64,000 bases of DNA from Isoetes taiwanensis. Lineage: Eukaryota > Streptophyta > Lycopodiopsida > Isoetales > Isoetaceae. The notes beneath the pieces were generated by a model. That model worked only from the letters and a program-made list of their open reading frames with translations, did not search any database and had not been told where the DNA came from. Within the stretch, counting starts at the first letter, position 1, and each line of letters starts with the position of its first letter. This document shows, in pieces, positions 20,951-64,000 of the stretch. The stretch is from positions 5,101,563 through 5,165,562 of the forward strand of contig JAJEKV010000014.1 of the NCBI GenBank assembly GCA_021234155.1, written 5' to 3'. The translations under genes were made by a program, and so were the position numbers.

Positions 20951-20982
20951 ATCACGAGCTGCCACGTGGCGATCGCCTACAC

Positions 20983-41543: not shown

Positions 41544-41619
41544 ATAGATCTTTATCCCTCCATTCACATCAGAGATAGATCTTTATCCCTCCATTTTATC
41601 CCTCCATTCACATCAGAGA
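41544..41619. repeat. Tandem duplication, ~31-bp unit
   Basis: ATAGATCTTTATCCCTCCAT is repeated, and the second copy contains a further TTTATCCCTCCATT slip. Confidence 0.9.
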
Positions 41620-41649
41620 GGCAAATTAAACAAGTGAGCCTAGCGTTCT

Positions 41650-42950: not shown

Positions 42951-42982
42951 TCATAAAACCTGATTTAGCTGTGGCTCCAAAT

Positions 42983-43163
42983 TTAGTTCGTCATCACTAG
43001 TTTCCAGCACTTGTTGATTTCTATACTCCTCCTTCGCATGCAGGCTGCACAGGGCTGAGCGTAAACCTCTCCTTCCTTCTTGCACAGGGCCAGCAGGTCG
43101 ATGCCTGCCCCCTTGATCAGATTGATCATCTCTTGCCTTGTCAATTTGTTCTTGGCCCATTTT
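42983..43163 (-). CDS. Orphan exon-like ORF, unknown
   Basis: The minus frame gives KWAKNKLTRQEMINLIKGAG followed by IDLLALCKKEGEVYAQPC and AACMRRRS. The composition is protein-like, with Cys pairs (QPCAAC). I do not recognise the family. A competing frame over the same bases is Arg/Gln/Gly-rich and less natural. It may be an exon of a decayed or captured gene. Confidence 0.25.
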
Positions 43164-43193
43164 GAGCTGTTGATGACCAATCATCTCAAACAA

Positions 43194-44344
43194 CTAAACT
43201 ATGAGGACTGAACAGTGCCTAGTAAACTAGGGGAACCATAAGAACCTCATTCTGTACGAGATATGCAAGACTCGTTCCCAATGCTACATATGTGTCCAAA
43301 GCATCAAGTTCTTAAGCTTTAAACATTTTATCAAAGCCATATTTGATTAACTTCAATGACATTGTATGCAGATCCATGTCACGCCACGTCTTAGTCTACT
43401 TAAAGAGTAGGATACGTTATCTCAGTATATAGTATATGACAATCAAAGACAATAATTCTGTAGGCATTTACAAATCTGTTTCTTTAAGTGCTACAATGCA
43501 AACCCAATTGTCTGTGCAATCACCATCCAAATATTCTAAGCCATGTGTTCTATGGTCAGATACTAAGCACCAAACCGTGAAAAATATTTAAAACCAGTTC
43601 AAAGTAGTCTCCATTCTTTCCATTAAAGCCTAGTTTGCAGATACTCAGTCTAACAAATACCTCAAAATAAGCTGGTCACTAAATCCATATAAAAGCATTG
43701 TGCCACCAAGATAGGGAGCAGAGCCACTCCATATATATGCCATGAATTAAACAGTTATTTTACCATGCCATGCAACTTAAACAGCATGTATTTTTAAACT
43801 TAAACAGCATGTATGCTGGTTTATGATTGTTTATAGCTTATCTATACTAGCATTTCTGATAAATGGTGGGTAGGAGCTATAACATATTTGGATTTTTAAG
43901 CAATTATCTATCTCTAGCTTTATTTTGTATTAGGCCCTCTGGCTTTAATCTGAAATTGCATTACATTTAATTATGACTGCATGGAGCTGCAGTATCGAGC
44001 CAGTGGAACCGTCCCCCTGTCTCCTAGATATCCAGCTTGCTTATTTGGACCCATAGAAATAATAAGTCCTTCATAGTCTTTTTCAGAGACAATATTTGCT
44101 GTCATTGCAGAGAAGACCATCTTGATATGTACCATCCAAATATCTTAGCACATGCTTGAAAAATAAATGACTCTTACACTATGAACAGGGGGGAATTGGA
44201 AACTTCAGTGATAAAAGGAATTCTGACTCTGTAAGAAATACAACTACAAAATCTGGAGTTAAAAGAGAGATCAATTTCTCTTATTTCAGTCATGAGTGTC
44301 AGGAGGTTCATATAGGCTTATATGTATTATACCTTGACATAGAA
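43194..44344. other. Unassigned AT-rich DNA flanking the Helitron
   Basis: No gene is supported. The last bases, CATAGAA, are the left flank of the Helitron and continue directly into the LINE tail on the far side. Confidence 0.5.
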
Positions 44345-44588
44345 TCCTATATTATAAAACCGTGGCGTCGGTCTGTGCGCCCGATCGACGGCCGAGATCG
44401 TCCCAATGTCCCTGCACCCTTATTGACGTCCCAGATTTGTTCGTTTGTTTCTCCATCGCTGTGGAGGATCCAGATTTAGCCACGTGGTAAAGAGAAAGGA
44501 GGCGTCGCTTCATGATTTTAACGTGGCATAGTTTGGGGTTTGTGATTTTAACTCGGGCCCATGCTTTCGTTCCTCTATTTTGTTACAG

Positions 44589-45242
44589 GGAGGAGACAGC
44601 GCAGCAGAGAAGCCACGTCTTTTAGGCCCCCTTACAAGGGTCCGGTGTGGGGTTAGAATCAGGATCTGTGGCAGAATGCAGGACGAAATGAAAGCTATTA
44701 AGGAGGGTAAATCATTGGAATGTAAGTACGCTCATTACTTGAGTATGATTTTGGAGTATAGCGCACAGTCATTTTTAGGGAAAGCAAGCATTTCTTTGAA
44801 ATCAGAGCGAAAACAGAGCATTTCGGTTCACCCTGTATCTGTAAAACTAGAAGAACGCAGCAGTTTTGAGACTGTAAAATGAGAACAAAGCAGCTCTGAA
44901 AAGGAAAATTTTCTTGTGGAAAACTTTTCTGCTAAACGCCCACTGGTAACCATTACCATCAGTAAAACTTTTCTAAATATCTTGATGTTACTTTGTTCCT
45001 TCTAATAATTTTGATTTTGCTTCTCAGCTCCACACGCTATCCTGGGAGAGAGGACATTTGAGCAGGTAGTGAAAGAGCTTAATAGTTTCACAGAAAAGAA
45101 AGTAAGCCATGGTGCGGCTACCGGCGACCAGGATTCAGGTTCCAGTGTTAGCATTACTGTTGTGGGTGCTTCTGGTGATCTGGCAAAGAAGAAAATATTT
45201 CCAGCGTTATTTGCCCTGTATTATGAAGGCCATTTGCCTCAG
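44589..45242 (+). pseudogene. G6PD: Plastid glucose-6-phosphate dehydrogenase fragment inside the Helitron
   Basis: Exon 2 (45028-45242, acceptor CTTCTCAG, donor GTTGCA) encodes [20 protein letters not shown] and [13 protein letters not shown], the N-terminal NADP-binding (GxxGDLA) segment of G6PDH; the sequence is closest in form to plastid isozymes. The enzyme oxidises glucose 6-phosphate in the oxidative pentose phosphate pathway. Exon 1 (44589-44721, acceptor TGTTACAG, donor GTAAGT) joins in matching phase to give [20 protein letters not shown]; its origin is less clear. No substrate-binding motif (RIDHYLGK) or later exon is present, so no enzyme can result. A transcript could still splice. 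Confidence 0.8.
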
Positions 45243-45459
45243 GTTGCATTCAGATGATTTTAGGAAATAAGTTAGATTAGCTGAAATAGTAACTTCTTGC
45301 ACTTCTTCTTTGCTAGAGTGCTTTCTAGGTAATCACAGAGCTGGTGATGGCAGGAAAAATTGCTTTCATGGCAACATAGAGGTAAAAAGGTGATATGGCA
45401 CTGATATTCTGCTAGGTAGTTTTGATCCCTTAATAACATCCATCGCTTTTGTTCTGCAG

Positions 45460-45805
45460 GTACAGACTCGGCTTTTTAACATAGAAGCTCCTGCTGCTGC
45501 ACACAATAAAAAAACTTCCCTACAGAGCAGGTTTGCAGGTTTGTCGCAACATAGACTTCCATGTAAATTGTTTGCATATCCATCCTATTGTTTATGACTT
45601 GCAATATGCTACTATGGTTCAGCATATCTTAAACTAACACATCCTAAAGGATAAAGGAGGAGAAATTTATTTGTTAAGGACAACCAGTCTCAGTTATTGC
45701 AGGCTCAGTGTAGAGATTCGCCAGATCATTGATTGGGTTGAGAAGCATCCAAACACAGAATTTAGATTCACATGCCGGACATGCAGGAGTAAATGCGCGT
45801 CCTTG
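45460..45805 (+). pseudogene. Second pair of exon-like segments inside the Helitron
   Basis: Exon-like segment 45460-45530 (acceptor TTCTGCAG, donor GTTTGC) encodes VQTRLFNIEAPAAAHNKK. Segment 45703-45805 (acceptor TTATTGCAG, donor GTATAG) continues in phase as LSVEIRQIIDWVEKHPNTEF then RFTCRTCRSKC. The phases agree, so they probably come from one gene. I do not recognise it. It is not the next part of G6PDH as I know that family. Confidence 0.4.
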
Positions 45806-47552
45806 GTATAGAGAGGTAAAGAGCAATCATTTGTAAGGTCTCTATATTTTTGCATCTGAAGAGTCTGTTTTCGTTATTAGTCTGCACTCGAATCGTATCT
45901 TCCAACTTTCAAAGTTTTAGTAGAGCAACCCAATGTGACAATGTGTATTCCTTGCCTCTTCTGCATTTAGTAAGGTAGAAGAGATGTTTGAGGAATGTCA
46001 TTTCATTCATTACCACTCTCAAGCAGAACTCTGCATCCATTTCCTTCCCTTAATATCCTTTTTTCGTAAACCACATGTTAAATCCATCCATGCCTTTTTT
46101 AAGTTTGCTACTTATAGAAAGGACATATGTTGCTTAATTTTTGTGATTGAACGAGACATATGCTATTGCAGGCAGCCTTTTTATTCATGTTAAAAAAATG
46201 GAGATGTCTATTTATGTTAGTTTCGTTTTGGTTGCCACCTTGGAGAAGATCCTGAAATGACACAACATGGAGTTTCCACACTAACAGTATTTAACTTTTT
46301 AGAAAGCACTTCTCAAGCAGGTGACTTCTCAAGTAGGATATGAAAAGTTTTCTGCAACCCATAACCAAAATTTTTGCAACCCATAGACCTCCATTTTTTC
46401 TTTTCGAAGTTATAGTAGGAGATATCAGGCCAATATTTTGCATCTTTAGCTAACAGTGGTATCTTACACTATTGTTTCTCAGTTCTAGGTGCATATGCTA
46501 GCTTCCCATGATAGATTATAACTTGCGTTTTTTGAGTAATTAGGAAATTCCAATTGTGTTGGCAGATGGTTCAGAAGAGTCGTTCGACAATTTAACTAAA
46601 CGCAAGGGAGATATCAAATGTGTATATGATGTGCTTTGACATTGGTACATTTCGTAGAATCTAGAATTTAGTTGTTAAGAGGGAACTGATGCAATGCAAT
46701 CAAGCAACCTAGAGAGATATACAAACCCTTAGACCAATAATGATTAAATAAATATATGATTTTACCAGTTAATCTTCCATTACGCTAGAGATAATCTTTG
46801 GAGTTGACTGTTTTGACTCCATCGTCAAGGTGCTATAAGAAGCAGAGCAATTGAGCATAAAAATATCTCTTATGCATTATGTTTACAACTATCAAACTAG
46901 AGTATTGTAGTTTGTCAGGTTCAAACGAGATGATTCTATTCAATGGTGTGGGATTATAGTTCCATAACAAATTTATGGAACCTTTGCCCTTGGCTGCCGT
47001 GGTTGCAATTGAAACCATGTAAGAGTTGTGCATGATAGACATGTCACACTGTCCTTTGCAAATGTCTTAGGGGACAAGTCGTGTCATAATTGTTCCATTA
47101 CGAATTGTTCCATTACAAGTCACACTCTTGCCAAATTCTTTCAAATCATCCTTAGAAGCAATTCTTCTGATCAAAACAACATGAAAAGTATCAATCTTCT
47201 TTTTATCTGTCTGGCTGTTGTTTAAACCCTTACAATATTAATATCATTCATGCCTAGCAGACAATGATGAATCGTAGCCATGTTTCCAATCATGCTACAA
47301 AAGCCCAAAGCATTAATTATGAGTTCGTACCATATCATTTTTGCAAAGGTATTCATAGTTTTCATTGGCTCTAATCTAGATACCTCTAAACCACACTTTG
47401 AGCATTATTCAATAAGCACTTCAAAAGCACGTCTTGATAAACTTTGTATGCACTTCAAAATTAATGACTAAAGAATAAAATCCAAGGTTAACATCACAAC
47501 CCAACAAGTCATATGCATATTGCAATAATGTTCAACACAACAAGTGCTTTAC
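45806..47552. other. Helitron interior, unassigned
   Basis: No gene motif is visible. Frames at 45984-46193, 46833-47042 and 47028-47225 are AT-rich and unsupported. Confidence 0.4.
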
Positions 47553-47627
47553 GCCCCAGCAATGCTGGGCACTTTTCCTATTATAATAAGATATCCAGTC
47601 TTAATTTTATGCCCAGCAATGCTGGGC
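47553..47627 (+). repeat. Two internal Helitron-end-like hairpins
   Basis: GCCCAGC-AAT-GCTGGGC occurs at 47553-47570 (with one extra C) and 47611-47627, followed by ACTTTTCCTATT and ACCATTACTTTTCTTAG. Hairpin plus T-rich spacer plus CTAG-like bases resembles a decayed Helitron 3' end, in the same orientation as the active one at 48721. Confidence 0.6.
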
Positions 47628-47854
47628 ACCATTACTTTTCTTAGAATAGTCTGACCATTTCTATCAATGGCGGCAAGATACAAGCTTACGTAATAGGGGT
47701 CAATCACTAGAAATTGTAGGATCTTAGCATTGTTTGGGCGTTTTTTGAGATAATCATTGATGGGTTTTTCTAGCAACGAGTTGAATGTGCTATGCATGGT
47801 TAGTATGGAAGTGAAAGCTGAAGAAGATGCTATTATAGATGTTGGTTCAAATTG

Positions 47855-48014
47855 CAATATGAGGTACGGGTACAAATAGAAAAATTATAATAATGCAAAA
47901 GTCATGAACTGGTAGAAATTGCAATGAGTCCTCGCAATATGAGGTATGAGTAAAAATAGAAAAATTATAGTAATGCAAATGTCATGAACTGGTAGAAATT
48001 GCAATGAGTCCTCC
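47855..48014. repeat. 80-bp tandem duplication
   Basis: GCAATATGAGGTACGGGTA and GCAATATGAGGTATGAGTA start two units that match through GAAATTGCAATGAGTCCTC. Confidence 0.9.
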
Positions 48015-48202
48015 CTCATTAGAAGAGAGAGGTTCCATTGCAAGAAAGTTGTGGAACAATCTTACTCAATAGCTCATACAAGATAGGCATATTACTTTTA
48101 GTGAGGACTTTGCTCACAAGTTATAGCTGATTTTTCCAAATTAATTATAAATTGATGCTGACATGTGATTAAGCTAATGGACGAGATTGAGGCAAAGCAG
48201 CA

Positions 48203-48252
48203 CAAGATTTCATGTTTGTAGATTGCTCAAGATTTCATGTTTGTAGATTGCA
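48203..48252. repeat. 25-bp tandem duplication
   Basis: CAAGATTTCATGTTTGTAGA starts at 48203 and 48228. Confidence 0.95.
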
Positions 48253-48720
48253 TGATGAAGAATATGCAGCGTGCTTGGTTTCAAAAAATGCATATGGTAC
48301 TTAAAATTATGTGGCTCTGTCCGTTATATGGCTCTCGCTGCCCTTGCCTACTAGCATTCAAGCAATTGTTCCTTAAGGCCAGCACCAACATATTTTCAGA
48401 ACGTGTATTTTGCATGCATGTATCAATTCGTGTATTTTGCATGTGTTGAGCAAGATGCATGATCTCAATGAAATTAAGTCTCAATGAAATACATTTGAGA
48501 CCTTAACTCATGTCTAAATTGATAATTCTTGATAGAGGCAACAAGTAACTGCATTTTAACTAAGTTAGGAGACAAACATACTCAAATATTCATTAACACC
48601 AGCAACGTCCCATCGATCACAATTTTAGTTCCCATCTACTGCATTTTGAACATAGGAAGCTGCTCAAACAACCACTAATGTTTTTCATGCTTGAACTGCC
48701 TTGGTATAATCACACAGAAA

Positions 48721-48747
48721 GCCCACCAACGGTGGGCAATTTTCTAG
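48721..48747 (+). terminator. Helitron 3' terminus (hairpin + CTAG)
   Basis: A 7-bp GC-rich stem with a 3-nt loop is followed by AATTTT and CTAG. In Helitrons this structure marks where rolling-circle replication stops. Confidence 0.9.
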
Positions 48748-49173
48748 TAGAATAGAATAGAATATGATTTTATCGTCCACGGAGACCAACTGGCCTATGG
48801 GACCCAAGTACAAAGAGAGAGCAAAAGAGCGATATTACTACCGAGGATTAAAAACCCCGCCCCAAGGGTTTTGGGAAAAACCTTAGTAGCAATAAGGATC
48901 TTGACATCTTTGCATGATTATATACATAATCACAAGTACAGTGAGGTTAATGTCGGACGGGGGGCATAAGCGAGTCCACGTATCCATTACCTCACGGAGG
49001 TACGATCCCAACAAGCCTACGAGGCAGAGGCCGTGCTCGGTAGCTCATGCAAGGCCTGATGGGGCACAACTAACCGAGCATACCGAGCCCGATATGCTCA
49101 AATGCGGACAGGCACGGAGGCGTGACTTTCATCCTCAATGGTGCCCCTGTTGGCGGCATTGGCGGACTCTCCC

Positions 49174-50860
49174 TCACGCGGCTCCCCCAATCCATCTCCC
49201 CTGTCTCAATGCGGGAGGTGGTGTGCACTGTCTTGAATGGAAGCAATCACCTGCGGCTTTTTCATGGGTAGATGGGTGCACGGTAGTGGTGTGGGCCCCC
49301 GTGAGCATGGGATTAACCCGTTGTCGATAATTTGCCACCTTGACATGTGAGGGCCTCGCATCCCAAAGCTTGGCCATGAAGCAAGCATCCAAAATCTTTG
49401 CTTCAAGGCGGCGCGTTCCTTCGGTGTATGCGCGGGTCCACATCGTGATACTGCACATTCCATAGCGAGAACCACTGGGCTTGCTTGTCTTTCCAGCGAA
49501 GCTTGCGGGCCCATCACCAATCGCCAAAGCAAGGTTGGGCGTGCGGGCTTCATCCATAGCCACCACCTTACGGAAGTAAATAATGTGGCGTTCAGTAGCC
49601 CCTCGTAATGGAAGGAAGCCTGTCTCGAGGCAAGATCGATATGGGACCGTGGATTTCACTCCCGGTTACGGGCCAAGAAGGCCTTCATTACCTGCTCTAG
49701 ATCGTTCCAAGTGGTGAGGGATATCAGCGGCCCCACACTTCTCGCCCCCATAGAGGAGGACCCGGTTCAACCAAGGCCCCGAACAAGTGTGCTGGTGACC
49801 CCATGCATCTGACTCTGCCTTGTGGATGTTGTTTTGCATTGCATACGGGGCTTTCCGGCTGCGGTGACCCGTAACCTAATGGATGCATCCCGGTGTGTGG
49901 TAGTAGAAAACTCAATGCCCAAATACTTATAAAGATCGAGCCACCTCCACTACACCTTACGGTAAGTGAATGAGGGAAAGCGTGGATGCTTAGGGATGAT
50001 GGGACCCGTGACACCCTTGTCTTGGCCCGATTAACTCTCATGTCGATGAATTGGCGAAAAGTGTCCAAAGCATCGGGTGGCGTTGCATGTCCTCAGGGGT
50101 ATATGCGGCGGAGTCAACATCATCGGCATATATGAGTTGCGGATTATGTGGTGCATCAACCGAAGCCTCCCCGTGCTTTCGGCTAGCCATTCTTCTAAAT
50201 TTGGTCAATGTACAAAGCCGGCGTCGGGGATAGAGGGGGCAGCCACGGGCGCCCCAATGCTACTAACAACGGGCTCCCCGACGGTGTGAGACGGCCGAGG
50301 AGCAAGCCTCGTATAATGCGTATATAGCATTCGCAAGTCGACGGGGTCCCTAGGCTGTCTCAATCTATCCCACAACTTATCCCGAGCCAGCGTGTCAAAA
50401 GCCTTTGCAAAATCCACAAAGCAACAAGATAGATTAAAGGTCGATTAGGCTATCCTCTATGAGTGTTCGCAGAGAGTGAAGATATGGTCAATAGTAGAAT
50501 GCCGGAAGCTTTTGCTCGCGTGAGAGCCCGCACTTCTCCATCCTCGCCCAAAGTGTCAATGCGCGGCTCAAGAATCCCGTGAAGCAACTTGGCAAAGACG
50601 AGCCCGACCATAATGAGTGCGATAGTTGGTCAGAACGTGGGGGTCCCCGCTTTGTATATGGGCACAACTCTACTGTAGTCCGGTCGCGGGGAAGCCTTCT
50701 TGCAATGCCACATTGAAGAGTCTTTGTGAGAACCCGGCACCATTGGGGGCCGCCCACTTGAGAAGCTCTGCATACCATCCAAATCTGCTGCCTTCGGATT
50801 AGCGGCGTTGCAGGCCCATTATGACATCCCTTCGGTAATGACCGGCGGTTACTAGGCACA
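49174..50860 (-). pseudogene. LINE copy 2, reverse transcriptase
   Basis: Near 50690-50640 one frame gives VVPIYKAG. At 50417 another starts MDFAKAFDTLARDKLW, motif A with its catalytic Asp. At about 50275-50225 GEPVVSSIG is followed by the garbled remains of VRQGCPLSPTLFG, shifted by small deletions (the intact form is in copy 1 at about 18970). The thumb-side remainder continues to about 49200 (LEAKILDACFMAKLWDARP). The protein is not expressible. Confidence 0.7.
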
Positions 50861-51439
50861 TGAGGTACTTGGTGCCACGGCTTCCCATTGGGTCATACAA
50901 ATGCAAAGTATCTCACCCATTGTTCCGGGGTAATATTTCTGTGGGTCGTGCGGGCTTACTCAAGACCTTTCTCCGAAGGCCCTAGGGGTGGCGGTCTAGA
51001 AGACCAAACATCATTCTTTGGTGCTCACGCAAAGGTACACAGCTTTCTTGGTCTTGAGGAAGGAGCGGTATTGACGGACGGCTGCTTGCGGATGGTGGGG
51101 TCGGCACTTGGCGAGCCATCGTTTGACTCTCGACATTAGTCCATCGAACCGGTGATTGCGAGGGAAGGTGATTGCAGCCCACGTGGATCGTCGAGGCGGC
51201 CTCTCCCAAAAGCATCATCCCCTACCCTCGGAAGAAGCCGGTTCACGGTTTGGTAGTCTGGCCGTTGAAGTGTGGGGAGTTGCGGCACTCCCGGCGGCTC
51301 ATGCTCAAGCATCCTCGCATAGACCGCCGCATGATCATAGTCCAGAGGCCTAACCGTGGTACATGGGGTGTTGGGGCAATGGGTGCTCGGTTGGCTGCCA
51401 ATCTATCTGCAAGAACAGTGATGATGGTGGAGTCTACTT

Positions 51440-52172
51440 CCTCGTCCGGCCACTGTCCCCGGGCTCTTGGCGAGTGATCAAGTGTAGGCATTGCTTCGTC
51501 TGCTAGCACGTAATCCACCACACTAGTGCAGCCCCACGGTTCTCCACGTCTACACAAGTGAAGCGGTGGAGGGCGACCAGCATGCCAGACCATTGCAAAT
51601 GACCAGGTCAAAGATCTTGCCCGACAGAATTTGGAAATACGGCCATACAGGTGTCGCGTGGCGTCATCGGCGCCCTTGGCCAAACCATCTCTGCGGGGTC
51701 CATTTGCAACACATCCTCGGCTAGAGGTGCGGAATTTTGGGATCTGCTCTGTCCCTGTCGCGTAGCGTTGAAGTCTCAAGCAACATGACCTTGCCCAATT
51801 GTTTGTGCTTCTTTGTATGTCATCATATAGATCGACATAGGGCTCCTCACATCCACATCCAAGTGCGTGTGGTAAAAGTTGCTCGGCATGTGGGAAGTAA
51901 CAAGCCGCCACAAAGAGAGGGCTGCCATCGCTGTTACGCACTTCGTACCCACGTGTATCTGTTGTGCACTGTCTGCCTTACCGCGGGGAGGCCGGGATTG
52001 GGCCAAGGCTGTCTGCGGTAACACGCAATTCCTCTGTGTCCTCGTTTCCGGTGCACTCATTGAAGAGCGGTATGGCCGGTATCTGGCAAATCGGTAGCAC
52101 GTGACCAGCATGTTCCCATGTTTCCATGAGGAAGATAAGGTCCATGTCCATGGCGATCGTCCCCTTCGCCAT
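51440..52172 (-). pseudogene. LINE copy 2, endonuclease domain
   Basis: DLIFLMETWEHAGHVLP at about 52140-52090 is the LxETW block. NECTGNE follows; SDGSPLFVAACYFPHA (about 51930) is the mid-domain block; TSVVDYVLADEAM (about 51520) matches the SxIDYV block before the last catalytic His of LINE endonucleases. Order and spacing fit the domain. Frameshifts separate the blocks. Confidence 0.7.
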
Positions 52173-53840
52173 GGAAAGCCCGCGGCAATTCGGGATACCA
52201 GCGAGGCACGATCCCCCTATTTAGTGGCATGCATCGCCGCCGAGTCCGGTGGTAGTGGTGGTCCCGGGGGCCCGGAAGATGTGGATGCATGTGCGGGGGG
52301 CCCCTCGAGGGGACTTCGAGGGGCGGAGTGCTGCATCCCCTGTTTGGTTTGCTGAATTCCCGCATCCTTCCCGGACCAGCCCGCTGCCCCTCCATGTCTG
52401 CGGCGGTCCACGACTTTGGCCACTCGCCCTTGGGTCTCTTGTTGTCTTTGGGGTCAAGTCCCTGTCCAGCGTCTGAGGCCGTCCCCTTCAACTTCCGACC
52501 ACGGCCTTGGGATGGCCACCCTCCCAGCAGCTCTCAAGCGTGAAGATGACCACCCGGGGCGCGTCGTCGCTGAATTCCATGACGACTTCGCCTTTCCAAT
52601 GGTCACGCTGTCTTGGGAACATCATCCGGTCCAAGATCACGTGGTGCGGAGGGGAAGTGAGATGTTCTCCGACTCCTCCGTCGGGCCTCGCACTACCACA
52701 TTGCGGCTCTGCGTCTCTGTTCACGGAGTTGGCGGGGGCCGCAGTGTTAGGTTGAGGTGGGTGAGGCATAGGCGTGGCCCGCGCCCGGGGGTGGTGGCGG
52801 CCCGGCGTGATCAATGTGTGTCCGCGGCATGTGTTCGAGGTTGGCGTCCCTCGTAGGTTGGTGGGTTCGCGGGGTTGGTATGTTCTTTGTTTGTGGTTTA
52901 CGTTCTCTCCTGAACCGGGCTCGGCTCTTGCGGGGGCGTTGTCATGTCTTGCCATCTCCGCGTGCAATGGCGGAGTTGCTCATGTGCCTCGGCATGGAGG
53001 CCCTTGCCTTCTTCGGGCAGGTAGCGTGAGCTCACAGTAGCTCGGTCTGGAGTGCTAAATCCTTACTCCGGCGGCCTTTCGGTTACGGCACGGCTTCTTC
53101 GGGCGGCTGGAATCCTTGTCTCCGCGATGGCGGCCTCCGCGGCTTCCTGCCGGGGGAGGGGCCTGTGCTCCGTCGCCGTGGCCTTAGCCTCCTCAGCCTG
53201 CACGGATCCCGAGGCGGGGTTGCGAGTGTCTCTGCTCTACCGGGTTCATCCTGCGTCCCGGCTTCCATAGCGCCAACATGGTGTCCTGCCGCCCCCTCAT
53301 ATCGCAAGCTCCTGGCGGTATTGCTGTATGTCAAATTGTAGCAAGTGGATGCTATCATGCGCACGTAAATGCGCGATCCTCCAATTACGTGATTACGTCG
53401 TTTTTAACGGCACTTCTTTACTGCGCCCAACATCCGGTATGTTATGTTCTCCACCTCTGGGGAGGCACGCAAAGCGTGCTGTTGGCCTCAACCCTCGCCT
53501 GAATCGGGCTCCAAGGTTGGACCGGCCCGGATTGCCTGTATGGCCCGGGCCTCGGTCGGGTCGACCGGGCCTTGGCTCGGGCCTCCCTCTTCATGGAAGG
53601 CGTCTCTCCCTCACTTGCCTCGGGCCTCTTCCTTGGTGGCCCCACTTCATGGTCTTCCCGAGGAGGGCTCACTGCGTGGGGGTCAACCCGGTGGTTGGTG
53701 TGTTTGGGCCTTCCGGGATGGGTTGGTGTGGTCTGAGGTAGCTCACCAACCAAGTGTGGGTCCACACACGGGGCGTGTCTGTGTGGCCATGACTTGGGGT
53801 ATGACTTGGGCGACGACTCCTGGATATCTGGTGTGTACCG
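52173..53840 (-). pseudogene. LINE copy 2, probable ORF1 and 5' region
   Basis: Overlapping Pro/Arg/His-rich frames (52057-52967, 53083-53364, 53442-53765) cover the region between the endonuclease and the tandem repeat. EVVMEFSDDAPRVVIFTLE near 52580 looks protein-like. No zinc knuckle is visible. The call relies mainly on position and G+C content. Confidence 0.4.
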
Positions 53841-54690
53841 GCTGCCACAAAAACCCTAGCACACAGCCCGGAAAAGTGCAGATTTGAGCCCCGAAACAAA
53901 GACAAACATGTAGGTATTATACACCGTTGGAAAGCTCTCTGAACCAGCTTTCCAACAAGCCCAAGCACATGAAAATCTGACACCGGATGAGAGAGATACA
54001 ATCCGTTGAAGTGTCTACCGATTGCGACAGAAACCCTAGCACACAGCCCGGAAAAGTGCCAATTTGAGCACAGAAACAAAGCCAAACATGCAGGTACCAT
54101 ACACTGTTGGAAAGATCTCTGAACCAACTTTCCAACAAGCCCAAGCACATGAAAATCTGACACCGGATGCGAGAGATATGACCGATCAAAATTCTGCCAC
54201 AAGACGAGACCAATCGAATACTTACTAAAACATACGCCAATCCCTATATTGGTGTCAGACTTTCATCAACAACACCATCAGGAACTAGGGTATGAATTAG
54301 TAAAACATTCTCGTAACCTTCAATAAGAGTACAACACACACCTTTCAACACCGCGTGGCCAAGGCCAACAACGGCATCAGGCGAGGGCTATACTTCTCAA
54401 AGAAGGAAGAAGAAGGGCTGCCACAAAAACCCTAGCACACAGCCCGGAAAACAGCAGATTTGAGCACTGAAACAAAGACAAGCATGCAGGTATCATATAT
54501 CGTTGGAAAGCTCTCTGAACCAGCTTTCCAACAAGCCCAAGCACATGAAAATCTGACACTGGATGTGAGAGATACAGTCCGTCAAAGTGTCTACCGGTTG
54601 CCACAGAAACCCTAGCACACAGCCCGGAAAAGTACCAATTTGAGCACAGAAACAAACCCAAGCAGGCAGGTACCATAGAGAAACAGAAAA
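53841..54690. repeat. 180-bp tandem repeat, two pairs
   Basis: Units start near 53841, 54021, 54417 and 54597 (the last one partial), each with CCACARAAACCCTAGCACAC then AGCCCGGAAAA, a TTGGAAAG...CTTTCCAA inverted motif, and CCCAAGCACATGAAAATCTG. Spacing inside each pair is exactly 180 bp. A ~216-bp unrelated segment (54201-54416) separates the pairs. Because 180 is a multiple of three, long minus-strand frames run through the units; they are by-products. Confidence 0.9.
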
Positions 54691-55805
54691 GAAGGCAACC
54701 TGGCATAATGATCACATATGCCCCAGCAGGTTCATCTCCAATGCTCTCCCATAAGCCAAACAAGCATCCAAACAAGCATCGTTACCATCCTGCTCCAGTA
54801 CTACAAATTAATGTTCAAGGAATTCTAAATGTTTAAATCTATATTCTCCTCACTGCAAAATGTTCTCCTGGAGTGATCTGTTCCACAGAACATAAAAACT
54901 ATCTTGACAGGTCCAAACTATCTTGACGTGTATTTGGTCTCAGTGCACTTACTGCCATGCATTTTGCATGATTGTTACATGCAGGTTGCAGAACATTATG
55001 ACAAAATGTCTTATGAAAAAGCATTAATAGAACTAGGCGCCATCTTTTGGCTTTTATTTATAAATTTTAAATGCATACTGGCTCTTAGCATATTTTCAAC
55101 AAGTCTTTAGGATCCACACGCTGGTTTTTGCAGCATAGTATGTCTCTTCATTTATTATGCTTAATAACTTTCGGGCTTTCTGAAAATTATGCATTTCACT
55201 AGTGTGAATGCCTTGTGCGTAAATGCCATGCATTTAAATTTATTTGCACTATCTGATTGCATATTTGCCACCTTTAGTTGAGGTCCAGAAATGTGTTATG
55301 CATTTGGAAACTTCTCAGGACTGCATTTGGAAGTAAAGACACGCTAATGTCTACTGTCTAGGATTTATAGGTTTACAGTCTTATTTTGCATATTGTACAT
55401 GCATTTGGATCTGGATAATTGTCTTGGAAAAACCTACCTTATGGCTTATGCGCCTCATTTAGCATATGTTAAACTTTTAGGAATTTGGTATCCTGCTTTG
55501 CTTGGGTATATTGGTCTATAACTCCAAAGTATAGACATGCTTGGTCAACATACGTTTTACTGAATTCCATCCCTAAGGCTCTCAGGCCCTAGATTCAATA
55601 TAATATAAGATTGAAACGTCTATTCACTTTTTACAAGTTCGTCCAATTTGGGGACTGTAATTTAAGATGAAACTAACAGCAATAGTTGAGGAAAAATATT
55701 TTTCCATAAGATGATGTTCATGGAATCAGTGAGATGGTTGCTTGTAATGATATTAGACTTGATACAACACCCATAAGGATTTGATTTAACCCCATAAAGA
55801 GGCAT
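54691..55805. other. Unassigned AT-rich DNA
   Basis: No gene is supported. A possible small exon (VAEHYDKMSYEKALIELG at about 54985-55040 after TGCAG) matches nothing I recognise. Confidence 0.4.
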
Positions 55806-56967
55806 CTAGGTGACAATGTCTATGTTATTCAACTCATGACATTTTACTGTCAATTCCCTACGGCCCCGAATGACTCGGCCATTGAGACAAAAGAAAAATA
55901 CCAATGAAGGTTCATACTCTAGAAGCAAAGATCTAACATCTCGAAGAACAGCATCTGTTGGAAGCTCAAAGTGCCGATATGGACTTCCATTCTTGCACAC
56001 TGTCAAAGATGTGACATTCGCATGTTCATCGTCATCTTGCTCAAGAGGATGCCACTGATAATTAGTACTAGCTGCTCGGCGAAACCTCCTAAATTCAAAT
56101 TTCAAAGAGAGTTTTTGTCTTGAAAAGTAATACCTGTGAAAAGATGGAAGTATGGATATGGTCAATTTAGAAATAGTCTAAATCAAATGCTTTTACAATA
56201 CACACGATTAATAGACCAAGTAAAACGTACCTATAAAAAAGCTTATCTTCCTGAACTCTACATTCAATCTCCTCAAATTCAAGTACGTACTTTCTTATCT
56301 TCCAACCATGCAATAAGTCCAGCTTTGTGCATATGGCTATCTTCTTTGTTTTTCTGTGACAGGAACTTCCAAATAAAGCTTCAAACATGTCGGGAATCAA
56401 AACCCATCCAAGTCTAACTGCAGTCCCTCCACTCTTCTTCAAGCTTGCCTGAATGTCTTGCATGATCTTGGCTTTGAAGAACATAACTTGCTGCAAATTA
56501 TTTCTAAGCTCTGTTGCAAGTGGTTGTTCTAACGGCCGTACTACACCATATTGCTCTGAGTGTTTTGGCACAAGATACTCATGACTATAAAAGAAGATCA
56601 TTTGCTGCCTGAGAGCTATTGATGTGCTACTTGCAAACATCCCTCTATAGCTAATGTGGTAGGCTGTAAATTTAGATGTGAAGCAATCAATGCTTTCCCA
56701 TTCAAAAGCATCTGAAAGAAAAATAGAGTTTGGAAATCTACCATGTTGAACCCTTGTTGCCATATCTTTACTTTCATAGACATGTTGCACTAATGCTTCT
56801 ATCTTTCCAGATTGATTTACTCTAAATGCCGTTACTCTATCTTTCCAATGCAAGTGAATAATCTGTACTGCATTTGGGGGCTGCATTGTAACCCAGTCAC
56901 CTGTTGAAATTATCCCTATTCTCGTCCTAACAGAGTCAATTTCACCAATTCCTTGTACTAGTGCCAT
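55806..56967 (-). CDS. Intact two-exon ORF, unknown; ubiquitin-like C-terminus
   Basis: Exon 1 (56967-56231) and exon 2 (56133-55806) join across a 97-bp intron with GTACGT donor and TTTCACAG acceptor, in phase, giving 354 codons and a stop. The N-terminal two thirds include GDWVTMQPPNAVQIIHLHW, RFPNSIFLSDAFEWESIDCF and LGWVLIPDMFEALFGSS, with no family I know. The last ~67 residues (SLTVCKNGSPYRHFEL ... LDVR-like helix ... FFFCLNGRVIRGRREL ... NNIDIV) follow the strand/helix/strand pattern of a ubiquitin-like beta-grasp fold, without a terminal Gly-Gly. No transmembrane segment appears if the intron is spliced. Its intactness in such a decayed region is notable. The ATG is the first in frame; earlier exons cannot be excluded. 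Confidence 0.5.
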
Positions 56968-57183
56968 TCCTGAAGATGGTTGCTAGATAGAGACATATAG
57001 CTCTCAAACTAAAACTGAATAATAGAAGCTTGAATGAGATGACGGTACACCAAAACAACAAAATCAAATCTGTGAAGCAAATTGCTACACTATTTCTTTG
57101 GGAAGCAATTTGAAAATGGCTAGGCTCATCTAGACAATAGAAAGCAAGATAGACAGACAATAGAAAGCAAGATAGTCCTTGAG

Positions 57184-57411
57184 ACTTACACCATTAATGC
57201 CCTTATTTTTCAAAGCTTTTGCAACAGTATAATACATCATCTCCATGGTTTTTCTCTGCCAATATAGTATTGCCTGCACTGGCCCACTCTCAGGAATACC
57301 CTCTGGCCACATAGGAACTACAATATATACCGTAAACCTCTCCATAGCTTCAATCTTTCTAGCAATTTTCAATGCCAATTCCCTGGGAATCAAATGAACA
57401 GCCTCTACTTC
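57184..57411 (-). pseudogene. PLD: Phospholipase D, single-exon fragment
   Basis: The minus frame reads [39 protein letters not shown] and [20 protein letters not shown]. This is the segment between the two HKD motifs of plant phospholipase D, which hydrolyses membrane phospholipids to phosphatidic acid. A GTAAGT donor follows KNKGING. Read-through gives DYLAFYC, which also resembles the family's DYLNFFC, so the exon end is uncertain. Neither HKD motif nor the C2 domain is present. It lies on the same strand about 200 bp upstream of the unknown two-exon ORF; I see no evidence that they form one gene. Confidence 0.75.
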
Positions 57412-57845
57412 CTAATCACAATCCCATGCAAAAGAACTGCCAAGAAAATACTGATTCTCAACGTAAACGAAGTGCCTGCAATCCCTCGGCCTGCAATCGG
57501 CCTGAGCTTAGTGCATCCCTCGGCCTGAGCTTAGTGCATCCCTCGGCCTGCTACAGCGGCGCTCCCAACGGAATCGAACTTATTAACCCATACCAGACTT
57601 ATAATAATTACCATATTAACCCATACCTAATCCGAACCTAAAACCAAACCTGACCCTTCACCAAATTAAAAGGCCCATTTTTTAAGGGCCACCTCCTCTA
57701 ATGTAAAAGCCTCCATAGTATTACCTTGCGCAATAAATAGTGGAATTGGTGGTTTATAATATATCAACCCCAATGCCTTAGACACATTATCAGTCCGTTT
57801 TGTTCAACTTTAAGCCCATCTTGAATCAACTCTATGGACTAATAT
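57412..57845. other. Unassigned DNA
   Basis: Apart from the 23-bp repeats at 57501, nothing is recognised. Confidence 0.45.
57501..57546. repeat. 23-bp tandem duplication
   Basis: CCTGAGCTTAGTGCATCCCTCGG occurs at 57501 and 57524 and continues as shorter related words on both sides (CCCTCGGCCTG four times). Confidence 0.9.
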
Positions 57846-59031
57846 CATGTACATGGTATATTTTCAACTTGTAAAGCGTATTAACATGCTATCTCTTACG
57901 TTCTTTTCAGGAAGAACCATGAGTAACAAGTTGATCTCTACGACCTATGTCGTGGTTACATAACCTATTCCATTTCGATGGAATAAAGCATCAACTTGTG
58001 TCTCAATAGAGCGCCCATACACCTTATTTACACGCTTTACCTAACTGAAAGTAACACAACCAATTACTTGCTTTGACGAAACTATCTTGACAGCATCAAT
58101 TTATCAAGTAACTGATCTAGGCCTAGACTACAATCTTGCCTAGTTTTCACAGTAGTGCACCTAGTGCAACACACAATAGAACCTTCCAATCTCGACTCCA
58201 ATGTCTCTCTTGTTCGATCTTCGCATAAAGCAAAGTCCTCATGAGGCTAAACTCAAGAATTTCCACAAAACCTTTGGGGTAATAATTAAAATGAGTACAC
58301 ATTCTTAAGTAGCTCCAATGGACTTTTATGCTCAATTGACGGACCCATCCATCTCTTAACATCTCGGATGTTAAGCTAGGAATATCGAGTATCAATATGG
58401 CTGGCATCAATTGCACAGACATATATCCATACGGGGACATTGCAAACATTACCAAGTATGGTCACTTGACCTACTGTCATGGTAAATACCACATGTTTGG
58501 ACTTCTTCCCTTACCATGGAATCCCAGATTCCACCATATCCATAACTGTTTCAAGACTCTCGGGGTCCTAAGGGAAGCTCTGCTTCCAAAACACAGTTTT
58601 TAAACTGCCAAGTCCTAATACGTACAAGACCCCAAAACTCCCACGGAACTAGAGGCCTAGTACCACATAGGAACCACTATGAATTCCACCTCAACAATTC
58701 CCAATTATTGTGAACTTTTAGCAGGACCCTAGGTGGTGCTCTATTGACGCTTCGAGTCAATAATAACATAGTCGTCACCAATTCTCCACAAGGATTTGGT
58801 TAAGCCTTAGCATGCAACCGCATGCCACTGATACTGCAATAACCTAGCAAGCAGAAGCACAATACCCCCATGTCCTCTTATACTGCTAGCCTGGCTAGCA
58901 GGCCTGGGCAATGGTCCTATGTTATCAACTTATACTAAGTAATGGTAACATGCAGACCCCTTGCAGTACCCCAGTACTGCTATTAAGTACCCCTAACCTT
59001 GTTAATTACTAGTCCAACTAGTAAAGGGGTA
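57846..59031. repeat. Array of short hairpins, A2
   Basis: Over 1.2 kb I count at least 15 short inverted repeats, most with 5-9-bp perfect stems and 1-4-nt loops: 57966-57985 (TTCG loop), 58117-58126, 58237-58246, 58355-58375 (9-bp stem, TCG loop), 58517-58533 (CCA loop), 58573-58587 (TCT loop), 58594-58607, 58743-58761, 58810-58825 (AACC loop), 58883-58901 (9-bp stem), 58963-58980 (CCCA loop), 59006-59024 (8-bp stem, CCA loop, itself enclosed by TACCCC...GGGGTA at 58988 and 59026). No ORF spans it. Confidence 0.7.
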
Positions 59032-59070
59032 TTGGATTGAAAAGTTATCAAGTTAATAATTTAATTTAAG

Positions 59071-59537
59071 TTTTTTTTAGTATAACAACCAACATATAAC
59101 TACCATTAACATTAATTAACACAACCATTGGGTCCAACACATTTAAAATCCCCCTTAAACCCCCTTTGGTTTGGGTGCATATTCACACGGCGGGTGACTC
59201 CGGGCAACGAGAGCTGTTGGATAGGCATATTCACCCCTTATTCTTCAATCTACACCGTACGTAAAGTTCCTCGTTTGTGGGGTATGCAAGTACAAAATTT
59301 GCTATACTGTATAACAAGATTTGCAAAATACTATAAGATTTTAAGCAAAATACTATATGGTGTTAATTTTGTACGTGTAAAATATAATTATAAGGGCTCT
59401 CAGCCCCCGTCACCCCGCGGTGAATATGCACCCAAACCAAAGGGGGTTTAAGGGGGATTTTAAATGTGTTGGACCCAATGGTTGTGTTAATTAATGTTAA
59501 TGGTAGTTATATGTTGGTTGTTATACTAAAAAAAAAA
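59071..59537. mobile_element. Foldback (MITE-like) element, copy B
   Basis: The terminal inverted repeats (about 59071-59180 and 59420-59537) are nearly identical over more than 100 bp, from T8-AGTATAACAACC to GGTGCATATTCAC. The ~240-bp centre matches copy A at 8857-9392 (GGATAGGCATATTCACCCCT, ACTATATGGTGTT). High arm identity suggests a younger insertion than copy A. No target duplication is obvious, because the ends merge into T/A runs. Confidence 0.9.
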
Positions 59538-61225
59538 TTTGGGCCTTTCGGGCCCTAAAAAAATCAAACATACGTAAAACCATGTGAAACATGCAAAACA
59601 TGTAGCAATATGTAATATCTAATATTTAGCATTATAACAAATAAAAGAAAAAACTAATATGAAACCTGAGTAACTATAATGTTATAGCATAATGTAATTT
59701 AATTACATACGCTTCACCACAGCATTTAATTGCTAAATGGTATAGATATATATTTTGATTCTTCACCACAACATTGTATCCTGTATATTGTATATGAATG
59801 GCATAAAAGCATAGTTTGTCTCTTCATCACAATGCTATGAAGAGCAACTGCAATCTTTAAAATAGTTCAGCACGTAATTCATGTGCATGAAATTTCTGGA
59901 TGGAGCGATGGCTTATAGCCATAGTAAGTTTGGTCTGGATGCAGTTTAAAAATCCATCATGATATGAGTTGAATATAGTGCTACATAAGATAATAGGCTG
60001 GACAATTGCCCCAAAGTAGAGTATTTGGAAATAGAGTGTTTGAAGATCCATTCCTGCATAAGAAATGAGACATTGCATTTAGTGGATGCTGTGCTGAGAG
60101 ATAAAATGGTCTTCCTTTTCAGAAAAAGCAAGCTTCTTAGTTGGAATTCAAACAAAAAATTAACTTACAGAGTCAAAGATTCAAATATGTGTTCAAATGC
60201 GTGCCTAGTTGTGGCCTTGTCTCCTATGTGTCTCCCAGTATTGCATATCCCTGCTTCATCTCAAGGGAATGAGGGAGCATGTATGCTCTGATATTTATGC
60301 AGTAACCTTGCCATAAAATCTACCAGTTATGTATCAAACAAGCCGAATTCTGTACCTCTAGCAATAGGTTTCAAAATCATGGCCAGAGATAAGACATCTG
60401 CAAATCTTCTATGCACTGTGATATGCAGATTGATTAAGGAAGATAAGTTGAAACCATAACCTAGCTTGACCGTGCAACTACTCCATCTTATCTTTATCTC
60501 TTGCATTTAGTATGCCCATGAAGAAATATCTATGGCCAATCTGCTCTCCAAGCTTCCTGTTTATGCTTCTTCACGCCTTGACCCACAAGCAGCATCCACA
60601 GAATCGATATGAATTACTATTATTACTATAGCGCACGCATCTAAATTGAAGACGCAAATAGACCCATACAAGATAAAGCCGATGGCAAAATATGCATCCA
60701 GATTGTCCAAATATGCATCCAGATTGTTGGCCTGGTGTTGGCCTGGTTTTTTCAAAGTAACACGAGATGACCTAAATTTTTTACCTGATTAGCTTACCGC
60801 TAGCTCCTCAGCTGGAAATAGCTCCTTCTCAGAAAAGCCATCGTTAGGATTCAGGATTGGCCGAATCGTTTAAGCCCTCACCGCTCATATCATTTCCTGT
60901 TTCCTTTTTGATGTCGATGATAACTTGTTTGTGTGTTCATGATATCTGACACAAAAGCTTCTCGATCAGCCCAACTTAAAATAGATTCAGACATCCGGCC
61001 CAGATTTTCATTCGTATAATCTTTATGAGAAATACTACATTTCTCAAAACTTTCGTGACAAATTCTAACTCCGCTCTCAAAACTTGCATGACAATTTCTT
61101 CTCTGCAGCACCAGAATCGCACACCAAATCCGAGCCAAAAGTATTTATTTTTTTTGCTAGATGTTTCCTGGGCCTACATGCAAGAAACATGGGTAAAAAA
61201 TAGGAACTGCCACTAATTAAAACCA
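59538..61225. other. Unassigned AT-rich DNA
   Basis: No motif is recognised in frames at 59857-60291 or 60890-61259. A short duplication, AAATATGCATCCAGATTGT, lies near 60687 and 60709. Confidence 0.4.
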
Positions 61226-61290
61226 CACGATTTCTCTTCTCAATCAAAATCAACGGCACAATTTCTCCTTCTCAATCAAAATCAACGGCT
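61226..61290. repeat. ~32-bp tandem duplication
   Basis: TTCTCAATCAAAATCAACGG occurs twice about 32 bp apart, the second copy running into the dispersed repeat. Confidence 0.85.
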
Positions 61291-61416
61291 GAGAAAGGGA
61301 AGCACTCTAGAAATACTTTTTCGTACATCAACGTGAATACATCGTTCAAATCATATAAAAACCTTAATAAAAAACGTATAAAAAATCCAAAGGAAACCCC
61401 CTGTTATAATGCTACA
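61273..61416. repeat. Dispersed repeat, copy 2
   Basis: It aligns with 10096-10246: AAAATCAACGGCTGAGAAA at the start and CCCCCTGTTATAATGCTACA at the end, same orientation. As in copy 1, a foldback element lies to its left. Confidence 0.75.
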
Positions 61417-61420
61417 TATT

Positions 61421-62300
61421 CATCATGAACTAAAATTCATGATGCCATAACCAATTTCTTGAATTAAATTCAAGCAAGCATGATCATGAGCAACAGAGCA
61501 TTTATATACACCTTCCTGATATTCGCTTTTCAGTATTTCAAGATCATGCTCTTCATGATCCTTATGACCACCAGGCCACAGTTAAGTTGCTAGCACCTCT
61601 CCTTACAAGGCTGCAACTTAATCCTGAATACCTACTTAATACGGAAAGAGACAATATAGAGTTGCAGTATTACCACGGTATGAATGTTAATTCCAGCATC
61701 GCCAGGGTATACATGGTGATCACAATATTACCATGGTATAAACGGTAATCACAACTCCACCATATTCTATAGCATAACTAACACAGGTAATTGCCATAGA
61801 GGATCCCAACGAAAGACTGCAACTGAGCTTGTACCAAATTGTTACAACCTACAAAAAGTAGGATCAATTGTGCTACCTAGAACTCCCAGAGTTCCCCTCA
61901 ATCTTGAGTTCTCAGAACTCCCCGCACACAACTATTACTGATCCCCAGGATCAGCCTGAAGCCCAGCTTCAAAAGTTCTATCACAAGAACTCAATACTGC
62001 AGTAGCAGTATTGCTCAAAGGAGAGTCAAGAACGCTCCAATAACATAAAGACTCCACAAGTAAGCACCAAATTATGGAGTAACTCGGAACAGCTCGAATT
62101 GATTCCCAATCAATTCGAAATGGTCTAAAACCCCAGAAGCAGAAGATCAAGCAGGACGTTCCAATTGCTTGGCTTCAGTGGAAAAACTGTCCTCTCCAAA
62201 ACCGTCTCCAATTCCTTATATAAGACCACTAGGGCCAAGAATAGGCGGAAAAAGGCTTATGGACCTTGTTCTCAGCTAAAATTGAGCATCCTATGCTCAG
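61421..62300. repeat. Array of short hairpins, A3
   Basis: Successive hairpins include 61421-61444 (9-bp stem), 61458-61474, 61542-61560, 61582-61621 (9-bp stem, 22-nt loop), 61729-61738, 61848-61862, 61880-61894 (GAACTC-CCA-GAGTTC), 61906-61920 (GAGTTC-TCA-GAACTC), 61939-61953 (CCA loop), 61957-61971 (CCA loop), 61992-62013 (9-bp stem), 62094-62118 (11-bp stem, CCC loop) and 62283-62299 (7-bp stem, CCT loop). Stems differ in sequence while loop size is conserved, so these are not copies of one repeat. Confidence 0.75.
62214..62223 (+). promoter_or_regulatory. Possible TATA box within hairpin array A3
   Basis: CTTATATAAG, a palindrome containing TATATAA, sits near the right end of the array. 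It could be the core promoter of an LTR-like unit. This is inference only. Confidence 0.3.
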
Positions 62301-64000
62301 ATCCGGCCTTTCTCCTCAGATCCGGCCGCCTTATACAGCCACGATGCCGCATGGATTAATTTGTCCCCTTTAAATACCTAACCAATGAAACGATGCCACC
62401 TCAGCCCCATAAAGCAAATGTTAAGTGGTTTTCTTGAGAGCCCCTTTATAATGCCAATTTACATACAAAACAAACGCCAATTGAAAAACCCATATGCCGC
62501 CCCTAGGCGGTAACTGCTCTTTGACACGTTCCCATGCCACCCGGTGGCACTTGTAAGCAAACTCCCGGTCCCAAGGCATGCAAGCGCGACCTGCCCTTGG
62601 ACTGTAACACAAAGCTTCGACTCCAAACACTTGGAGAAATGTCCTCAGGTAGATTATAGCTCGCTCAGAACAACGTCAGGATGAGAGATAACACTGGTCA
62701 TATCAAGATCATTAGCATTGTATCATCTAGGTTTTGCACCAGAACATCTTCGGGATGCAACTCTACCTCTTGTGGCGGTGACAACACTTGACGACCTTGT
62801 GACACAGGTGTCCTTAACAATAGAAGGAGGAACGGTTAGACATCTTCAGAAACCGCGGCCACGATCTCAAGCCGACAGATGTCGAGAGATTATCGGGGAC
62901 GACCTGACATCAACGAGCCAACTGAGAAGGCAACATCTCGACGACCACAATCCTACCTTATGGTGATGTATGCTGATGCTTGTGGCATGCGTATTAGATG
63001 GAGATACACTTACAAAAGATATTGCAGCGATGGGTTATGCCTATGCTCATTCATCAGGTGCTCCTACCAATAATTGAAAGAGAAGAAGCCGATTGTATCT
63101 CCGACATGTAGGACCTCAATGTCCAAGATAGAAGCATTCGACACGTTAACGACAACGATGGCAATCAAGGCACCTTCGGCAAAAAGAGAGCCAAGATAAT
63201 AGCCAGGCTATTCAAGAACAAAAGTAAATGTAGAGCAAAAACTTCGTCAACTCAAGGGACAAGCTATGCCGACATAAGGATCCATCATTCCGACAGCATG
63301 ACCATCAGGAAGGAGAGCCATGATGTCTTACTCGCCACTGAGATGCACATATAGAGAGGAAAAAGACCAGGGATGAGAAGGTGGAGAAGTGCTAGCAATC
63401 GACTACTTCCACGACCTCCATAGCGGCAACATGAAGTTCAAATTGCTGAGCACGATCAAGTGCCACTGGAGAGTACCACAAGACAAGACGACAACATAGC
63501 ACCTTAGAATGTGACAACGTCCAAGCCGTGAGATCGAGGGGATCAAAGAAGCAAGATTGCAAGCTCGGTGCAGAAGCAACTAGGCGAATCGAGCCAAAGA
63601 CTCGGCGATTTAACTAGAAACCTCATTAAGATACGACAACTTACATGCAACTTGGCGAACCCACGGATTGACGATTCGAAGAACAACTCCTTAAGAGTTT
63701 AGCCAAAGGAATTGCGCACAACCTCAAGGGACATCTCCAAATAGCTTCAGACATCGTGGAGGGGGACAACGTTTGACCAAGAACAAGATAAAAAAATAGA
63801 CCAGAACGCCGAAGCATCAATGGCCTTCACATCTTTAGTTAGAGCGTGAAGCAAAAGCGTATTGCACCATAGTCAACAGATATTGGATCAACAGACCTAC
63901 CCAGAGTATGAGCTGACGTACAAATAGGAGGAACATCGACATCACTGCCTTGAAATACTTGCGCACCTCAAGGGGAGGCTATGGGGGACCTCATAGCTTT
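62301..64000 (+). other. Probable decayed retroelement DNA
   Basis: From 62700 composition is even and CGAC-rich, with many short frames, of which 62718-62966 (LGFAPEHLRDATLPLVAVTT) is the longest plausible one. Near the window end, CAAGGGGAGGCTATGGGGGA (about 63972-63991) is purine-rich like the polypurine tract before a 3' LTR of plant Ty3/gypsy elements. No enzymatic motif is recognisable, so the assignment is weak. Confidence 0.3.

Follow-up and report, generated by a model that had tools for sequence, protein, structure and literature searches.

The locus raises the question of what kind of sequence carries a dense run of short hairpins at 61420–62300 of the window (the whole 64,000-nucleotide stretch of Isoetes taiwanensis DNA that was analyzed, C952:5101563–5165562 of the 1.66-Gb assembly) and of why the hairpins are there. 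With a hairpin defined as a perfect stem of at least 6 bp and a loop of 3–8 nt, the region contains 11 non-overlapping hairpins as compared with 0.80 ± 0.86 in 100 dinucleotide shuffles (maximum, 4). Seven of these make up an array at 61880–62118 that, read on the minus strand, lies in the R/U5 part of a long terminal repeat (LTR): GAACTC-CCA-GAGTTC (61880–61894), GAGTTC-TCA-GAACTC (61906–61920), CTGATCC-CCA-GGATCAG (61938–61954), TGAAGC-CCA-GCTTCA (61957–61971), AGTTCT/AGAACT (61974–61991), CAATACTGC/GCAGTATTG (61992–62013), and a hairpin with an 11-bp stem and a CCC loop (62094–62118). Three more are in the adjoining leader at 61421–61560, and one, TGAGCAT-CCT-ATGCTCA, is in U3 at 62283–62299 (minus strand) and is shared by only part of the copies; the U3 of the window LTR has a further hairpin at 62535–62549. 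A sequence-only reading of the region had described four consecutive hairpins at 61880–61971 with 6-bp stems and CCA or TCA loops, followed by an 11-bp stem with a CCC loop at 62094. The positions, the loops, and the 11-bp stem are as it described, but the stem at 61938–61954 has 7 bp, and the first two hairpins, which were supposed to share form but not stem sequence, have the same stem in the opposite order.

The array is part of a larger hairpin-rich element that is present in the window in four pieces. These contain 34 hairpins in 3977 bp (8.55/kb), 4.3 times the density in the remainder of the window (118 hairpins in 60,023 bp, 1.97/kb). The piece at 61420–62609 has 12 hairpins, as compared with 8 in the densest 1190-bp stretch outside the element (20701–21890, near 20,700), and the block at 57704–59074 has 10, as compared with 1.76 in its shuffles.

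Judged from the order of the same sequences in sister copies, the pieces at 39139–39831, 40509–41235, 57704–59070, and 61420–62609 are one copy, on the minus strand, that has been split by nested insertions. The last piece comprises a 770-bp 5′ LTR, TGTTAC…GTAACA, at 61840–62609 (U5 end at 61840 and U3 end at 62609, both ends being common to sister copies) and the non-coding leader that adjoins it at 61420–61839. The region at 57704–59070 is a second hairpin-rich part of the non-coding interior, which continues at 40509–41235 and at 39139–39831, where the left end is truncated. In sister copies, 57704–59074 is followed about 20 bp further on by 61420–62609, and 39139–39831, 40509–41235, and 57704 are collinear; in the copy on C1104, position 7789 of L053 (C1104:384088) corresponds to 41235 and C1104:384090 corresponds to 57704. 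The alternative of several separate array elements is ruled out by this contiguity, and the suspicion that the arrays are related is borne out: those at 39424–39809 and 61880–62118 and the block at 57.9–59.0 kb, which is probably the array named A2 by the sequence-only reading, are parts of one element. The common form proposed for the first two holds only in part, because the loops at 39424–39809 have 4–8 nt and include no CCA triloop. That first array belongs to the element up to 39831, but the hairpin at 39837–39856, which had been counted with it, sits in a nested insertion outside the element.

Three insertions interrupt the copy. (i) The segment at 39832–40508 (about 680 bp) is the shortest. 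(ii) The segment at 41238–57703 (about 16.5 kb) has 13-bp terminal inverted repeats, CATTAGAGGAGGT, and resembles a DNA transposon, possibly of the CACTA or Harbinger type; the element sequences on its two sides are directly joined in the copies on C1104 and C955. It includes a GC-rich block at 49–54 kb (53–62% GC) and tandem repeats, and six open reading frames (ORFs) inside it have no Pfam match. (iii) The segment at 59071–61419 is missing from sister copies that span that point and consists of a MITE-like inverted repeat at 59071–59535, with 128-bp inverted arms, and other sequence up to 61419. The MITE-like element is related to one at 8855–9338, the arms being 98–99% identical within each. 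The stretch at 61278–61419, which is 79% identical to 10097–10235, probably marks where another mobile element ends, because it stops exactly at the insertion boundary at 61419. Elsewhere in the window, inverted arms of about 1 kb that are 91% identical (5698–6713 and 8108–7087) give 5698–8108 a foldback-like structure, and further stretches related to these arms are found at 10246–11505.

No match to the element was found to the left of 39139, and the copy is therefore taken to be truncated there, with its other LTR missing. A look for a partner LTR in the flanks had been suggested as a check; none was detected at E ≤ 1e-8 in the window or in the 9 kb beyond its right end, and the place of the partner is on the left, where the copy breaks off. 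The window copy is old, truncated, and cut up by later insertions, and arrays separated by more than 20 kb can, as this case illustrates, belong to a single nested element.

A genome search with 61421–62300 gave at least 42 matches from 440 candidates, of which the best 40 were scored; copy counts from these searches, which score only the best 40 candidates, are lower bounds. The LTR is 74–88% identical to other copies (81–82% in two short second pieces), and the identity of the interior among the scored copy matches is 69–95%, with the extremes in short pieces. Two intact sister copies were delimited, one at C955:562255–568451 (6197 bp; target duplication TCTAG; LTRs 91% identical over 724 columns) and the other at C1049:8144371–8150870 (6500 bp; target duplication GTTTC; LTRs 88–91% identical in three pieces). 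The sister copies have LTRs that end in TG..CA and a 5-bp target duplication; the window copy retains one LTR. The interior of the C955 copy is 4.6 kb long. One LTR plus the interior of this copy contains 10 ORFs of at least 70 residues, of which the four that were compared with Pfam have no match; the longest, of 100 residues, is a simple repeat.

A related copy on C1048 (target duplication ACATA; LTRs 88% identical), the only coding relative examined, matches Retrotrans_gag, RVT_1, RNase H, Integrase_H2C2, SH3_Tf2-1, and Chromo. Its LTRs are 76–77% identical to that of the window element, with which the copy also shares the LTR ends, the primer site, and the polypurine tract. In this one partner copy, a strict pattern for a CCHC-like zinc knuckle has no match, and pieces of such a motif are present only in two frames. 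A second Ty3-type element, with a gag match and stretches similar to reverse transcriptase and integrase, is nested in the C1048 chromovirus copy (L026:6161–7000 and L027). No gag-pol with a chromodomain, nor any other coding, was detected in the interior of the window element, and at E < 1e-3 neither the window nor the non-coding copies have any similarity to the C1048 proteins. A known structured RNA was considered and rejected: an Rfam scan of the window gave no match at the gathering threshold and no hammerhead ribozyme, which would mark a retrozyme. The 4.6-kb interior of the C955 copy also separates the family from TRIMs, which have almost no internal domain. On these sequence comparisons, the locus is very probably the 5′ LTR and leader of a LARD-like element, non-coding and derived from a Ty3/gypsy chromovirus (LARD denotes large retrotransposon derivative, of which Sukkula of the grasses is an example).

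The arrays had been read as the U3/R part of an LTR-like unit. They do include an LTR, but a U3/R assignment on the plus strand is ruled out by the primer site, the polypurine tract, and the orientation of gag-pol, all of which place the element on the minus strand. As a consequence, most of the array comes after the TATA-like site in the reading direction of the element and occupies R/U5 and the non-coding leader. The primer-binding site at 61825–61839 (minus strand) is degraded in the window copy and reads TGGTATCAGAGC in many sister copies, a sequence that we take to be of the tRNA-Met type. Flanking sequence was available for 42 of 54 LTR starts; it matches the 12-mer TGGTATCAGAGC exactly in 13, with one mismatch in 11, and with 2–8 mismatches in 18. 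A polypurine tract is found beside the other LTR end in many copies, in the same orientation. The TATA-like palindrome CTTATATAAG, which had been placed at the right end of the array, is present at 62215–62224, between the hairpins that end at 62118 and begin at 62283, and is a likely promoter on the minus strand; of 37 aligned copies, 12 have TATATAA at this site and 13 have TTTATAA. Transcription would start approximately 30 bp downstream of it, and the proposal of a highly structured transcript is likely to be correct.

Conservation of the stems was examined in three alignments. Alignment A1 (37 rows) comprises the window and 36 of 37 listed copies, L032 being left out for its incomplete start. 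Alignment A2 (18 rows), of the leader, comprises the window, 11 listed copies, and six that were missed by the chaining script and set by hand (L007, L008, L010, L011, L012, and L035); the ranges of L037, L038, and L041 were lengthened by hand. Alignment A3 (14 rows), of the interior, comprises the window and all 13 listed copies. The majority sequences of A1, A2, and A3 contain 8, 3, and 12 perfect hairpins, most of which are perfect in only part of the copies. The stem columns have diversities of 0.133, 0.053, and 0.088, respectively, as compared with 0.233, 0.162, and 0.123 in the remaining columns, and among the column shifts 0 of 446, 0 of 401, and 4 of 1391 give stem diversities as low as these; the stems were picked from majority letters, a choice that favors pairing and could bias such comparisons to some degree. 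In A3 the loops have the highest diversity (0.240), and none of the 1391 shifts attains the loop-stem difference, whereas in A1 and A2 the loops (0.183 and 0.070) are between the stems and the rest, and the difference is reached by 58 of 446 and 164 of 401 shifts. A lack of conservation of the palindromes among family members would have told against the sequence-only reading, but in all three alignments the stems vary less than their surroundings. In a search with the C955 LTR, 21 of 55 rows match only within the first 215 bases, the hairpin block, some of them also matching in a short stretch close to the end of that LTR. The middle of the LTR has diverged, and the U5 hairpin block is common.

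Compensatory change was more limited. Within the LTR type of the window itself, 20 doubly changed cells were counted as compared with 12.0 in shuffles (reached by 4 of 500), a weak excess, and a simple proof by covariation in this type was rejected on these numbers. Because of this weakness, other non-coding subfamilies were added to give alignment A4 (59 rows). This leaves out L006 (a near twin of L003), L016, L019, L032, and L038 (incomplete at the start), L036 (lacking a start), L035 and L055 (interrupted by AATAG repeats), L061 and L065 (matches that were split), and L037 (an oversight). The count covers 46 pairs, namely the window stems, one outer pair, and one 5-bp stem, the last two of which account for six pairs that were added after the alignments had been seen. 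In the U5 block, the 59 rows contain 54 doubly changed cells as compared with 27.0 ± 4.5 (0 of 500 shuffles), and the covariation score is 0.113 as compared with 0.094 (0 of 500), the rows being related, so that the shuffle counts are not probabilities and reflect few independent events. The number of pairs changed on both sides, 9 as compared with 8.0, is not above the shuffles (178 of 500). A control without the six added pairs gave 34 doubly changed cells as compared with 16.1 ± 3.6 (0 of 500; 7–26 in slid versions), a score of 0.109 as compared with 0.094 (0 of 500; 0.023–0.061 in slid versions), and 7 pairs as compared with 6.6 (253 of 500). One pair (G:C in 34 rows, A:T in 23) supplies 23 of the 34 control cells. 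The added outer pair (T:A in 22, C:G in 18, and A:T in 1, with 17 of 59 rows unpaired) supplies 19 of the 54. The covariance across copies that had been suggested as a check is therefore above shuffles but confined to one or two pairs. Taken together with this control, which lowered our estimate slightly, selection for structure is marginally favored as the reason that the hairpins have been kept.

The loops provide a further regularity. The window pieces contain 14 triloop hairpins as compared with 0.83 in shuffles (3 shuffles for 1–39000 of the window and 30 for the other sets), and five of the 14 loops are CCA and none is TGG, CCA having a frequency of 0.027. Six sister copies have 7–15 triloops each as compared with 0.7–1.5, with 2–4 CCA loops in each and TGG in none. 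Of the 16 triloops in the A1–A3 majority sequences, 9 are CCA. Elsewhere, the partner gag-pol stretch has 2 triloops as compared with 1.20, neither of them CCA; 1–39000 of the window has 17 as compared with 10.67, with no CCA; and 41236–57700 has 11 as compared with 3.93, with one CCA. The LTR of the partner contains 5 hairpins as compared with 0.82 in shuffles; three of the five coincide with family positions, and the one triloop hairpin of this LTR is CCA. The repeated stem-CCA-stem form that had been noted is therefore real and strand-specific (UGG in the element RNA) but not general, since other loops occur and the array at 39424–39809 has none of this kind.

A mechanism that would accommodate these features is as follows. 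The element RNA would be transcribed from its LTR, and Gag, reverse transcriptase, and integrase would be supplied by a chromovirus, a dependence inferred from the fact that the element encodes nothing. The UGG-tipped hairpins might act as repeated Gag-binding or packaging (psi-like) sites that let the non-coding element compete for the particles of its partner, and the leader array of the partner would have been kept and then extended over the parasite interior. There are precedents in that the nucleocapsid domain of HIV-1 recognizes stem-loops with exposed guanosines (PMC4576207) and in that the RNA of VL30, which is non-coding, is packaged into MoMLV virions (PMC4859993). As a whole, a chromovirus-derived LARD with hairpins as Gag-binding or packaging sites is the best explanation we can offer, although our confidence in it is a little short of even. 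Packaging as the reason for the hairpins is put forward tentatively. The most specific version, in which the parasite would have multiplied hairpins of the partner's leader (a variable stem with a C-UGG-G tip) as a packaging code read by protein, the stems drifting with some compensation and the tip being kept, is rather doubtful.

Several observations count against packaging. One or two pairs carry the covariation, UGG is found in some of the loops only, the loops are longer at 39424–39809, the partner LTR has one triloop hairpin, and the CCHC-like zinc knuckle of the one partner copy is fragmentary. If the sense RNA were selected, sense G·U pairs should be preferred, and this is hardly so in A4, which has 129 sense-type and 122 antisense-type wobble cells (107 and 93 without three gapped outer pairs) and, among pair positions with at least 3 rows, 14 sense-type and 17 antisense-type. 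In A1–A3, the excess is slight (152 sense-type as compared with 116 antisense-type cells), and strand assignment by wobble bias was set aside. In addition, the antisense strand departs further from its shuffles in folding than the sense strand does: with RNA parameters, z is −6.3 for antisense and −3.6 for sense R/U5 (−3.6 for sense R/U5 of the partner) and −7.6 and −4.2, respectively, for the interior, for which 701-nt folds with 20 shuffles each were used.

Stems of Watson-Crick type with no clear excess of sense wobble are what a DNA-level process would give, and the hairpins could accordingly be by-products of replication with no function, arising when template switching by reverse transcriptase or host polymerases perfects near-palindromes, which non-coding DNA, having no reading frame to protect, then keeps. 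It is in keeping with such an origin that both strands fold better than shuffles, that the covariation is confined to few pairs, and that the coding stretch of the partner is also enriched (14 hairpins as compared with 5.95 ± 2.60 in 60 shuffles, maximum 14). We nevertheless consider it rather unlikely, since it leaves unexplained both the conserved stems with hypervariable loops in alignment A3 and the preference for CCA loops in the absence of TGG. The array may also have been selected for another role of the RNA, such as a block to translation and decay of the non-coding transcript, dimerization, or the priming of reverse transcription beside the primer site. The hairpins flank the primer site on both sides, and the U5 block is common where the LTR middle has diverged, as a role of this sort would lead one to expect, but the array runs on for kilobases beyond the primer site, and there is no great likelihood that such a role accounts for it. 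It is quite improbable that the functional strand is the first-strand cDNA, with hairpins in single-stranded minus DNA that guide strand transfer or integration, because, although the plus strand of the window is that cDNA and folds most anomalously, the difference in z may stem from G·U pairing that raises the sense background, and we know of no plant LTR element that needs folded cDNA hairpins.

The reading of the hairpins as packaging sites bears on the open question of how non-coding LTR elements flourish by using proteins that other elements supply. To our knowledge, little is known of the packaging signals of plant retrotransposons, and competition for packaging would become testable in a family that has a repeated hairpin with a recurrent loop as its interior and a coding relative in which part of the leader hairpins recur.

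The sequence-only reading knew of no described plant element with such a layout, a statement that is too strong because LARDs and TRIMs are described, in an account that treats them as non-coding groups, as having "well-conserved RNA secondary structures" and are assumed there to need the proteins of a partner (PMC7215508). A search of the literature, mostly without subscription journals, found no repeated stem-CCA-stem triloop array on a chromovirus-derived LARD. The window element resembles LARDs in its conserved non-coding interior of several kilobases and its assumed autonomous partner, a likeness of description and not of sequence. It differs in that its structure takes the form of short local hairpins in a row, of which many share a triloop, in having an LTR of only about 0.77 kb, and in having a chromovirus as its coding relative. 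It is linked to the Ty3/gypsy chromoviruses by the identity of its LTR to those of the C1048 copy but has no detected coding. With TRIMs such as Cassandra it shares the lack of coding, the assumed dependence on a partner, and, probably, structured RNA, but these are described as almost without an internal domain (PMC7215508), in contrast to the 4.6-kb interior here. As for the VL30 elements of rodents, we know of no such hairpin array in them. They are similar as non-coding LTR elements whose RNA enters retrovirus virions and different in being animal elements whose gag and pol are interrupted by stop codons (PMC4859993). Non-coding LTR groups with conserved structure are therefore known, and what appears, from the literature searched, to be new is a chromovirus LARD built from short triloop hairpins.
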